In this document: positions 241 through 3,612 of the stretch, in pieces
Numbering within the stretch: the stretch's first letter is position 1
How the letters are laid out: each line of letters starts with the position of its first letter
Assembly (NCBI GenBank): GCA_947097375.1
Contig: CAMURE010000030.1
Coordinates: forward strand, 1 to 7,154
Source of the DNA: an uncultured Candidatus Saccharibacteria bacterium
Lineage (GTDB): Bacteria; Patescibacteria; Saccharimonadia; Saccharimonadales; Nanosynbacteraceae
DNA length: 7,154 nucleotides
Reading direction: 5' to 3'
The notes under the pieces: model-generated
Told to the model about the DNA's origin: nothing
Database searches by the model: none
What the model saw: the letters and a program-made list of their open reading frames with translations, nothing else
Made by a program: the position numbers and the translations under genes

Positions 241-269
241 TTGACATTTTTTGATTTTATTGATATAAA
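241..269 (+). promoter_or_regulatory. Strong sigma70-type promoter driving the structured RNA
   Basis: A perfect -35 box TTGACA (241-246) is followed by a 17-base AT-rich spacer and the -10 box TATAAA (264-269). A TG at 261-262 one base before the -10 adds an extended -10 element. The predicted start of transcription is about 275-277. No ribosome binding site and ATG follow at a usual distance; the next bases enter the three-way junction at 290-376. This supports a dedicated transcript for the RNA region rather than read-through from the upstream gene. Confidence 0.8.
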
Positions 270-289
270 TAGAATTGCTTTTGTTCGTG

Positions 290-376
290 GAGCTAACTCT
301 TGGTGAGACATCGCAAATGATACCAAACCCTGACCATGCTTCGCACAAAAGCGTGGTTCAACAGGGGAGTTAGCTC
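290..376 (+). other. 5' three-way junction domain of the structured RNA
   Basis: A perfect 10-bp closing stem (290-299 with 367-376, GAGCTAACTC/GAGTTAGCTC) encloses two arms. Arm one pairs 300-304 with 322-326 (TTGGT/ACCAA) around a 17-base loop. Arm two pairs 328-332 with 362-366 (CCCTG/CAGGG) and continues as 333-339 with 351-357, including a T337-G353 wobble. The closing stem is followed by TTTT (377-380). The shape is aptamer-like, but I do not recognise a known riboswitch. It could simply be the 5' domain of the large RNA, or a weak early attenuator because of the T run. Confidence 0.5.
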
Positions 377-490
377 TTTTCTACTGCCGCAACTTGCGGC
401 GGAGAGGGGGTGAAACCCTTGGCTGGAAACCAGACCGACGCGCGTAAACGCGCGCAGCAGAACTACAAGTCCGCTGCAAAAAGCGGAGCT

Positions 491-520
491 AGCAAACAAG
501 ACCTGGACGTCTTGTTTGCT
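491..520 (+). other. Perfect 12-bp hairpin in the structured RNA
   Basis: AGCAAACAAGAC (491-502) is perfectly complementary to GTCTTGTTTGCT (509-520) with a six-base loop CTGGAC. The 3' arm overlaps a second possible helix, 518-527 with 578-587 (GCTGCTTACG/CGTAAGCAGC), which would also break the 563-568/575-580 hairpin. The two pairings cannot fully form at once, although a shortened 521-524/581-584 helix is compatible with both hairpins. Confidence 0.55.
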
Positions 521-710
521 GCTTACGCAGCAGCACAGGCGAAGGAAAACTCCGCCTGCGGCACGAGCTATCAAGCTCGTAAGCAGCACTAACTAGTATT
601 GACGGTCGGGGTTTGTGCGACCTCGAAACCAGCTGACCTCCGCGGTCAGCAACAGAGCGTCCGTCCGCTCTCGGTCTGATTCGCCGACCGGTAGTCCGGA
701 AAAGAATCAA

Positions 711-781
711 GGGTGTGCTGGGTCAGGAGGCAAGGTTTTAAAAACCGCCGAGCCTCGCGGGTTCGACTCCCGCCACATCCA
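711..781 (+). other. tRNA-like structure resembling a tmRNA tRNA-like domain without the mRNA part
   Basis: The acceptor stem is 7 bp (711-717 GGGTGTG with 774-780 CACATCC, one G-U), followed by discriminator A781. The T arm has a 5-bp stem 757-761/769-773 and the classical 7-base loop TTCGACT (762-768). There is no proper D arm: only CTGGGTCAG (718-726) lies between the acceptor and the next stem. A 5-bp helix 727-731/752-756 (GAGGC/GCCTC) stacks directly under the T arm with no variable loop, and encloses only 20 bases with a small GGTTT/AAACC hairpin instead of a 7-base anticodon loop. CCA is not encoded; CTG follows A781. Known tmRNA ends share this layout: T arm next to helix P2, no D stem, and a 5' CTGG motif. 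Here the GATTCGAC D-loop motif is missing and the mRNA-like domain is absent between the two halves. It might instead be a tRNA pseudogene, or a tRNA mimic like the YrlA module. Confidence 0.55.
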
Positions 782-821
782 CTGGGGTGCGTGCTGTGTT
801 CAGTGTTGAGCTGCAGTACGT

Positions 822-856
822 GTGATAGACCAGTAACCTCCACTCTGGTCTATCAC
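822..856 (+). other. Perfect 12-bp hairpin displaying an anti-Shine-Dalgarno-like loop
   Basis: GTGATAGACCAG (822-833) pairs perfectly with CTGGTCTATCAC (845-856). The 11-base loop TAACCTCCACT contains ACCTCC (836-841), the same core as the anti-Shine-Dalgarno tail of 16S rRNA. A complementary GGAGG occurs upstream at 726-730 within the tRNA-like element, so an intramolecular kissing contact is possible. The hairpin is a direct observation; any binding role is inference. Confidence 0.55.
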
Positions 857-1107
857 GAAAACGGCGTTGTTTTCGCCCATCTAGCAACCGCTACAAGCGG
901 CTCGTTACTGCCATCATCAAGCAGTAACTTGAGCCAGCGGTATGGATAGGCTAAAGGGACCTTCACCTTTCAAGGTCTCGCCTGTTCATCGGAACGGAAT
1001 CTGCGTGCTTGTGACGCTACCGTTCTTAAATCCTCAGGATTCGCGAGTTTCACTCGTCGCTAGCAGCCCTCCCGGGCCGCTCCGAGCAGAACCGCTTGAG
1101 TCCACCA

Positions 1108-1143
1108 CCCCGCGTCAACGATGACGCGGGGATTTCACCTTTT
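1108..1143 (+). terminator. Probable intrinsic terminator of the structured RNA
   Basis: A perfect 9-bp GC-rich stem, CCCCGCGTC (1108-1116) with GACGCGGGG (1123-1131), has a six-base loop and is followed by ATTTCACCTTTT. The T tract is interrupted, so termination may be partial. It sits just before the -10 box of the next gene, a natural place to separate the RNA from the downstream unit. Confidence 0.55.
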
Positions 1144-1144
1144 G

Positions 1145-1153
1145 TGCTATAAT
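1145..1153 (+). promoter_or_regulatory. Extended -10 promoter of a leaderless gene
   Basis: TGCTATAAT gives a TG extended element (1145-1146) and a perfect TATAAT (1148-1153). I see no -35 match; its place is taken by the terminator hairpin. TATAAT ends 6 bases before the ATG at 1160, so transcription should start at or next to the start codon and leave no room for a ribosome binding site. Confidence 0.65.
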
Positions 1154-2745: not shown

Positions 2746-3612
2746 ATGGGTGAAATTAGCAGAGTTCCACTATCATCTATCAATCCCGAACAAACAACAA
2801 AGGGCTTAACACCCCGATTACAGCAACTACCAATGGATCATCTGTTATTAGTTTCTGACAATCATGAAACCGTAGACTCTTCAACGACAGCCGCCATACT
2901 TAGCCCAAGAGAAGATTACGAAACAGGACGCGATGATAGCGTACAAAAAGTACATTTCGCAGACCTGTCTGTATTAGGCGATAATGAAACACTTAGTACT
3001 CAACCAATAGCCATTAAACCTTTTGATGTCGAATGGCTAGCCACCCGTGATTATCGTACAGCAGTGCAGCTCAATGAGGGCGGGCATATAACGTTCGAGC
3101 CAATCGGCTTTTTACGAGAAGAAGATGAACAGGGCAAGAATAAAATCTGCACTATAACAAAGTTTGAACAAGGCGTAACAAGCTGTGATAACATTCTATG
3201 GGGAAATAACGAACGCCAAAGACCTGCTGATTCTAGTATATCTCTAGCACTCAGTATAGCAGCACAAAGCCTCATAATACTGCACGACAGAGGATTGCAT
3301 CATGGTGATTTTCAAGTCAAGAACACAGCCTATGACATAACCCAGCAGCCGCGTATTATTGACCTGACTAGTGTAAAGAAACAAAACGACCCATATAAAT
3401 TTGGCGAAGATTTGTCGCTATACTTAAGTTCACTGTCGCGATATGGCAGACAAACACCCTACCCAACAGAAGAGCAGGTCGAATATCTATTCCTGCGGTC
3501 ATATCATGATCAGATTGACAATATATTTCCTAACAGTAAAAGACAGACAATGCGTGAAATCATCGCCTGCCTAGCTATCAACATTAGTGATGTCATGAAT
3601 GATCGCTACTAG
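2746..3612 (+). CDS. Divergent protein-kinase-fold protein (288 aa), substrate unknown
   Basis: The second half carries a kinase-type active site. HHGDFQVKN (185-193) matches the catalytic loop HxDxxxxN, with D188 as the likely catalytic base and N193 as a metal ligand. IIDL (204-207) stands at the DFG position, with D206 as the second metal ligand, and PIAIKPFD (87-94) looks like the beta-3 strand with K91. Gly-rich loop and alphaC glutamate are not obvious. HGD plus IDL is typical of atypical kinases (Kdo/WaaP-like, RIO/Bud32-like, aminoglycoside phosphotransferase-like) rather than Hanks-type kinases. The first 80 or so residues are polar, with no recognised domain, and I see no membrane helix. 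The target could be a protein, sugar or small molecule. The gene has its own promoter, is visibly AT-richer than its neighbours (possible transfer), and its stop overlaps that of atpC on the other strand. Confidence 0.72.
   Translation: MGEISRVPLSSINPEQTTKGLTPRLQQLPMDHLLLVSDNHETVDSSTTAAILSPREDYETGRDDSVQKVHFADLSVLGDNETLSTQPIAIKPFDVEWLATRDYRTAVQLNEGGHITFEPIGFLREEDEQGKNKICTITKFEQGVTSCDNILWGNNERQRPADSSISLALSIAAQSLIILHDRGLHHGDFQVKNTAYDITQQPRIIDLTSVKKQNDPYKFGEDLSLYLSSLSRYGRQTPYPTEEQVEYLFLRSYHDQIDNIFPNSKRQTMREIIACLAINISDVMNDRY

Follow-up and report, generated by a model that had tools for sequence, protein, structure and literature searches.

An elaborately folded, undescribed RNA of Saccharibacteria that seems to encode an exchangeable mini-protein and to contain a tRNA look-alike

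An undescribed and elaborately folded RNA of Saccharibacteria seems, as judged from its sequence, to encode an exchangeable mini-protein and to contain a tRNA look-alike. The RNA was studied in a 7,154-nt stretch of DNA (the window), in which a reading frame ending at 221 is followed by a promoter, a strongly folding region of ~860 nt and, at its end, a GC-rich hairpin; a 201-aa gene (1160–1765) comes next. An initial annotation had proposed a selected, unclassified and noncoding structured RNA at this position. Selection, structure and the lack of a known class are supported by Rfam searches, synteny, folding controls and compensatory changes, but the RNA does not seem to be purely noncoding, as it carries a mini-ORF led by a Shine-Dalgarno (SD) sequence. 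The sequence supports a chassis consisting of a promoter, a 5′ hairpin domain, a strong SD, the mini-ORF, two predicted post-stop pseudoknots, a tRNA-like domain, a 3′ domain and an end hairpin, and confidence in this predicted anatomy is high. The individual features are as follows (positions in the window).

241–269, plus strand: promoter, i.e. TTGACA (241–246), 17 nt and TATAAA (264–269), read from the sequence
289–376, plus strand: 5′ domain closed by a 10-bp stem (290–299/367–376), from inverted repeats and folding
386–413, plus strand: hairpin GCCGCAA/TTGCGGC and then the Shine-Dalgarno AGGGGGUGA (405–413), from an inverted repeat
419–592, plus strand: mini-ORF with a TTG start and 57 codons (MAGNQTDARKRAQQNYKSAAKSG...), SD-led
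601–670, plus strand: predicted pseudoknot 1, GACGG (601–605) with CCGUC (661–665), from a motif scan and the core alignment
671–709, plus strand: predicted pseudoknot 2, UGAUUC (677–682) with GAAUCA (704–709), from a scan and the core alignment
711–784, plus strand: tRNA-like domain, from a sub-threshold Rfam tmRNA match, ARAGORN and an acceptor/T-arm scan
785–1107, plus strand: 3′ domain with hairpins 822–833/845–856 and 904–911/921–928 and the conserved GAGCAGAACCGCTTGAG (1084–1100)
1108–1131, plus strand: terminal GC-rich hairpin, a probable terminator, from an inverted repeat
1145–1153, plus strand: extended -10 of the next transcription unit (TGCTATAAT), read from the sequence

Locus, ends and folding

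The loci of relatives exhibited the gene order ~1100-aa gene, interval, dus; in L003 the ~1100-aa upstream gene was assigned to UvrD-helicase plus PDDEXK_1. The RNA had initially been placed upstream of a 201-aa gene/dus pair. Synteny was observed with dus and with the upstream helicase-nuclease but not with the 201-aa gene, whose protein had no relative at E 1e-3 across 80 Dus loci. This protein contains a hydrophobic C-terminal stretch and no Pfam family was found for it. A 288-aa protein encoded at 2746–3612 of the window also had no Pfam match, and its HGDFQVKN stretch is reminiscent by eye of kinase-like folds.

The 80 loci were obtained by a Dus search of species genomes, the best being mostly Saccharibacteria and the lower ones including Bacillota. 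Approximately 540 positions of the window RNA were matched by nhmmer in L003, L006, L017, L002 and L007 at E 2.1e-11 or better. Of 394 family genomes, which sample a larger group, 355 contained a Dus at E 1e-60, and upstream DNA was collected for the best 90 of these 355 (30 loci and 60 stretches). Combining these with the window and 59 of the 80 first loci (the 21 left out were low-ranking and mostly Bacillota by title) produced 150 records, many of them duplicates. In 131 of these the upstream gene could be located, and a 200–2300-nt filter retained 121 and finally 87 distinct intervals, window included, with lengths of 242–2181 nt (median 784); tests on these 87 exclude short, long and unplaced intervals. 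A separate count covered 93 distinct loci without the window; the helicase-dus gap measured 400 nt or more in 83 of them, 100–400 nt in four and <100 nt in six. The genomes searched were of ~0.4–1.5 Mb, and TM7x, one of these bacteria by phylum, is given as 94% coding in a passage of PMC10768705.

The sequence of the proposed TTGACA-17-TATAAA promoter was confirmed by reading of 241–269, and the same layout was seen by eye in L001 and L002 (i.e. TTGACT/TATAAA). A promoter scan, which requires T at the sixth -10 position, did not list 241–269. Similar 5′ domains were aligned in L003, L006 and L134, the 386–413 hairpin and SD in three relatives, and the GAGCAGAACCGCTTGAG stretch in L003, L007 and L017; positions ~798–1031 had no counterpart in the nhmmer match to L003. 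Of the terminator that had been proposed, the GC-rich hairpin at 1108–1131 stands, but the U-run after it (ATTTCACCTTTT) is poor and the hairpin was absent from the list produced by a terminator scan of the window. In L003 the counterpart of this hairpin is followed by CTTTTCCTTTTT, and the equivalents in L003 and L017 have better U-runs. An end hairpin and then a new extended -10 at 1145–1153 hint that the RNA may be more than a dus leader. With the -10 at 1148–1153, transcription of the 201-aa gene would start from its ATG or close to it, and the gene may be leaderless.

Folding of 276–1143 as plus-strand RNA gave an MFE of -396.3 kcal/mol (z -14.5), with none of 20 dinucleotide shuffles as low, and the minus strand of the interval had a z of -10.6. 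The many local stems with long perfect pairs noted at the outset were recovered as 17 inverted-repeat pairs of 7–12 nt within 230–1150, including perfect pairs of 12 nt (491–502/509–520 and 822–833/845–856) and of 10 nt (290–299/367–376 and 1108–1117/1122–1131). Folding of the locus was assessed with the first 1000 nt of each interval and six shuffles each. Values of z < -4 were observed for 79 of the 87 intervals on the plus strand and 70 on the minus strand as compared to 2 of 83 adjacent 800-nt coding pieces, with median excess MFEs per nt of -0.091, -0.068 and -0.005, respectively. An excess MFE below -0.06 per nt was found in 70 of the 87 intervals and in one of 11 other ORF-free stretches (median -0.003). 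These controls came from the collected loci, had to be 180 nt or longer with no frame of 70 codons (actual lengths 191–707 nt) and were those left after removal of 12 of 23 that held a tRNA. Strong structure is a property of the locus. The plus strand was the more stable in 56 of the 87 intervals (one-sided binomial p 0.005). A 336-nt ORF-free stretch near a tRNA gene (L212, 858–1194) was as strongly folded as this locus.

The mini-ORF and its exchange

The region had been described as being without a protein gene, a description at odds with the SD-led 57-codon ORF at 419–592. Using a rule of an SD and 38–80 codons, ORFs were found on the plus strand in 48 of the 87 intervals, on the minus strand in 10 and in 2–9 in each of ten mononucleotide shuffles; no ORF was found by this rule in 39 of the 87. 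In a simple count, dN was lower than dS in six of six related ORF pairs, with a ratio of ~0.24–0.49 in five and a saturated dS in the sixth. ORFs weakly similar to that of the window (AGNQ type) occur in L173, L179 and L039, at 22–33% identity. Across the locus the ORFs are dissimilar in kind, some being helical and others zinc types with CxxCxGxG. The RNAs of L007 and L017 exhibited 91.0% identity over 144 nt before the ORF and 86.9% over 367 nt after it, and their ORFs gave no BLAST match to each other as DNA (E 1e-3) or protein (E 10). Both of these ORFs had been assigned to one profile (i.e. family A), which produced one match each in 17 of 198 genomes; 16 of these were at this locus, as placed by comparison of positions and, for G190, by reading of L207. 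An exchangeable mini-ORF is supported by sequence comparison, with dissimilar small ORFs (helical and zinc-type) occupying one chassis.

The predicted fold of family A is a 3-helix bundle (mean pLDDT 86), for which the best match in the PDB had an E of 1.4. No significant Pfam match was obtained among six mini-ORFs submitted, the ORF of L008 retrieved only itself in one database search, and a search for the zinc-type mini-protein in viral contigs confirmed none of 39 stretches. Net charges of +1 to +9 were calculated for the 14 mini-proteins with a post-stop module (see below), which would fit RNA binding. The codons of the window ORF folded at -78.3 kcal/mol as compared to -59.7 ± 3.9 kcal/mol for synonymous permutations and seem to be chosen for structure too, because this fold was better than all 300 permutations tried. 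On the minus strand of L134, two tandem promoter/mini-ORF/hairpin units with different mini-proteins were seen by eye in one interval.

These results bear on whether the RNA is a structured messenger in which all of the structure serves the stability and regulated expression of the mini-protein, the latter being the real effector. A constrained and SD-led mini-ORF is in keeping with such a messenger. So is L207, in which, by eye, a structured domain leads to a terminator-like hairpin and then to the ORF. So too is G017, in which the helicase-dus gap is only 48 nt and the ORF and post-stop module are found elsewhere; this relocated copy (L202, z -4.4) keeps both of these parts and has no tRNA-like fold by ARAGORN. 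Against it are the dissimilar proteins on one chassis, the structure, tRNA-like folds included, that continues for hundreds of nt beyond the stop codon, and the 39 of 87 intervals that lack an ORF by the SD and 38–80-codon rule. We regard a purely messenger role as doubtful while giving it more weight than the other alternatives considered below.

Post-stop core and tRNA-like domain

In predicted pseudoknot 1, CCGUC (661–665) is the loop of hairpin 655–659/666–670, and two hairpins (607–612/620–625 and 632–637/645–650) lie between the two halves. The first of these was misaligned by MAFFT and so lies outside the core test, its support being a hand alignment of the arms in which 33 of 36 cells were paired. 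In predicted pseudoknot 2, UGAUUC (677–682) is in the loop of hairpin 671–674/684–687 and a further hairpin (688–691/696–699) lies between the pseudoknot strands. The core with both pseudoknots was scored in an alignment of six sequences (i.e. A5), from which the structure had also been drawn, a circumstance that favours it: 97.2% of cells were paired and seven pairs exhibited two-sided changes (12 such cells), with 0 of 500 shuffles as high, and pairing fell to 26–48% when partners were slid. The UGAUUC/GAAUCA helix recurs in L001, L002, L003, L006, L007 and L017 and showed no two-sided change in A5. A scan for this helix was weak, with hits in 8 of 87 intervals (one further: L193), 6 of 87 on the reverse strand and 1–3 of 87 in shuffles.

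The post-stop module was defined as GACGG or ACGGA starting 7–48 nt past the ORF stop with TCCGTC or GTCCGT ending 55–74 nt from its start. It was present in 14 of 88 intervals (the 87 plus L202), in none on the minus strand and in 0–1 in 20 rounds of shuffled downstream sequence, the motif having been spotted in the same intervals before counting and several of the 14 being close relatives. The bare pattern was not enriched genome-wide (23 of 394 genomes versus 26 of 394 for a reversed control). A recurrent element centred on CTATTCCTGTCCGTCTCACA, with a hairpin after it and in many cases a U-run, overlaps the module and is shared by distant members (i.e. L026, L033, L036, L039, L041, L043, L047, L048, L054 and others). 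A core model (R1) found matches in 8 of 394 genomes, five of which were strong and had supplied its alignment, and a strict core pattern matched five of the 394 family genomes, all of them known beforehand. As the core model reaches 8 of 394 genomes, the window type is one narrow branch of a fast-changing locus, and the homology of other branches rests on synteny, the SD-led ORF, the post-stop motif and the tRNA-like folds.

The predicted tRNA-like fold of the window has an acceptor stem (711–717/774–780) with G3:U70 and a T-arm (757–773) with the loop UUCGACU; there is no D-stem, a hairpin replaces the normal anticodon arm and the end is ACUG, not ACCA. The G-U pair to which the initial annotation had drawn attention (713/778) is present and is position 3:70 of this acceptor stem. 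Both G3:U70 and A73, which we take to be alanine identity signals known from tmRNA, are found in the window, L003, L006 and one L002 fold; G3:U70 occurs in only 5 of 37 folds. ARAGORN called 711–784 as tRNA-Leu(TAA) and set a U before the TAA ‘anticodon’. A real tRNA-Leu(TAA) was rejected on the basis of the missing D-stem, the ACUG end and the lack of a normal anticodon arm, and a separate tRNA-Leu(TAA) is among the tRNAs read in G007.

When the intervals were searched for acceptor stems of 7 bp that stack on a T-arm of 5 bp, 37 folds were detected in 29 of the 87, with none on the minus strand and 0–1 intervals per shuffle in ten shuffles. ARAGORN made 29 calls in 24 intervals, all on the plus strand, and none in one shuffled set. 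With the two scans combined, tRNA-like folds were present in 32 of the 87 intervals, none of them on the minus strand, and 24 of the 87 had neither an SD-led ORF nor a tRNA-like fold by the rules used. In 18 folds, 125 of 126 acceptor cells were paired with two-sided change at all seven positions, counts that are biased towards pairing because the arms were chosen by hand, the A5 core being the better test. Only 15 of the 29 ARAGORN calls had U33, and 16 of the 29 had A34; in the relative G007 all 37 tRNAs read (30 loci; 42 matches in the genome) had both U33 and an encoded CCA. Because of this difference, many of the predicted tRNA-like folds cannot be ordinary decoding tRNAs. The comparisons support a putative domain that retains acceptor and T-arm pairing via compensatory changes and often does not retain decoding features. 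A third tandem tRNA-like fold in L002 (4575–4667) scored 43 bits against the selenocysteine tRNA model (threshold 47).

Two alternative explanations concern these folds. A functionless remnant, i.e. a decayed tRNA cluster or a repeat-rich spacer, is suggested by the pieces of L018 and L027, which resemble normal cloverleaves, but is at odds with the near-complete acceptor pairing of the 18 folds (125 of 126 cells in hand-picked, biased arms) and with a helicase-dus gap that has stayed at 400 nt or more in 83 of the 93 distinct loci counted; already disfavoured in our weighing, it is extremely improbable. A decoy for tRNA attackers (phage or competitor anticodon nucleases and the like) would explain fast-changing tRNA-like pieces and cargo, and both the rapid divergence of the locus and the many kinds of anticodon-like loop among the tRNA-like calls are compatible with such a role. 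Several folds, however, have long inserts instead of an anticodon loop (L006, L024, L037, L040, L046 and L121), and we consider a decoy very unlikely.

Known RNA classes and possible role

The statement that no known large RNA could be recognised has held, since an Rfam search of the window yielded no match reaching the gathering score. A sub-threshold match to tmRNA (RF00023) covered 711–784 with 36.7 bits (threshold 47), and the scores of this model in relatives were 26 (L003), 21.3 (L017) and 16.3 (L006). Only tRNA, tmRNA and tRNA-Sec were matched in six close relatives at E 0.5, and 39 further relatives' loci gave 22 tRNA matches and no other family at the gathering score. GOLLD, ROOL, OLE and HEARO were absent from the matches for the window (E 5), the six relatives (E 0.5) and the 39 loci (gathering score).

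A divergent tmRNA was rejected: all 12 relatives' genomes searched carry a canonical tmRNA over threshold at a different site, and SmpB was found in 11 of the 12, indicating that the window RNA is not the tmRNA. Like tmRNA, the RNA would combine coding sequence with pseudoknots and with a tRNA-like domain that has a T-arm but no decoding arm; G3:U70 and A73 are also present in the window fold. The tag ORF of tmRNA is not known to have an SD and is enclosed by the tRNA-like fold, whereas in the window the ORF (419–592), with an SD and a start codon of its own, precedes the tRNA-like fold (711–784). OLE, a large structured RNA in an operon-like chromosomal setting, is similar in these respects; it has no tRNA-like domain to our knowledge, and the window RNA does not match its model. 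HEARO, an RNA beside a nuclease ORF, is likewise a structured RNA linked to its own ORF but differs in that there is no model match and that the six mini-ORFs submitted had no significant Pfam match. RNAIII of S. aureus resembles the window RNA as a highly structured, dual-function regulatory RNA that encodes a small peptide, and we know of no tRNA-like domain or exchangeable ORF in RNAs of this type. Bacterial Y RNAs also have a tRNA-like module in a structured RNA and are much smaller, with no ORF known to us. No described RNA class known to us combines an exchangeable mini-ORF with a tRNA look-alike.

The resemblance in style to GOLLD, ROOL and OLE that was suggested initially is only partly supported, since none of these models was matched and the suggestion had missed the mini-ORF and the tRNA-like domain. 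The window RNA is like GOLLD and ROOL in being large and ornate with conserved and variable parts, and a passage of PMC12286853 describes tRNAs that lie nearby or, sometimes, inside the linkers of GOLLD, as well as binding of GOLLD to ribosomes in pull-downs. It is unlike them in having no model match, a syntenic chromosomal locus and a mini-ORF under selection. An RNA-only particle (a cage or oligomer), with the tRNA-like piece as cargo or linker ornament and an incidental ORF, would agree with the size, ornateness and variable parts and with the linker tRNAs and pull-downs of GOLLD (PMC12286853, same passage), but the GOLLD and ROOL models were both absent from the Rfam matches and the ORF is under constraint; such a particle is unlikely.

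A phage or plasmid origin was rejected after blastn at E 0.01 against 50,697 phage records and 72,556 plasmid records yielded no match. The strict core pattern had no match in viral contigs, and at least 120 matches to a looser pattern were chance-like and were discarded. Among 13 genomes of the genus to which L003 belongs, a search at the DNA level recovered L003 alone. The literature searched held no account of this RNA, as judged by title or abstract start, and the terms ‘tmRNA’, ‘tRNA’ and ‘non-coding’ are absent from the main text of a TM7x transcriptome paper (PMC10768705); this absence holds for what was searched and is no proof of novelty.

Taken as a whole, our reading is of an independent ~860-nt dual-function messenger and structured RNA that mimics tRNA, and we give it an even chance of being correct. 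The ~860-nt region would be one independent transcript, itself inferred to exist, from which the mini-ORF would be translated into the mini-protein and which would persist after translation as a structured RNA. The tRNA-like piece may be recognised by the ribosome or by tRNA enzymes; the domain would be handled by RNase P and perhaps by CCA addition and EF-Tu. The product, a stable RNA or RNP, would act on the translation machinery or borrow from it, with the mini-protein as a cis-encoded partner of the RNA. GOLLD, in the passage cited, provides a precedent for a large RNA that contains tRNAs and contacts the ribosome (PMC12286853). This mechanism (i.e. handling by tRNA enzymes, action on the translation machinery or borrowing from it, and a mini-protein partner) is tentative and is more apt to be wrong than right. 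A bolder and quite improbable version is a second kind of transfer-messenger RNA, in which one Saccharibacterial RNA would itself be both mRNA and tRNA mimic; its tRNA-like end would engage tRNA enzymes or the ribosome, and a partner or effector protein would come from the exchangeable mini-ORF.

If true, our reading would add a large RNA class that unites messenger, pseudoknots and tRNA mimicry outside tmRNA. With small genomes, this lineage appears to retain a structured RNA of several hundred nt at one place and yet to change most of its sequence and swap the encoded protein. As cultivated Saccharibacteria exist (e.g. TM7x, in a passage of PMC10768705), expression and deletion can be tested, and the locus may offer a testable entry into the use of RNA by ultrasmall epibionts.
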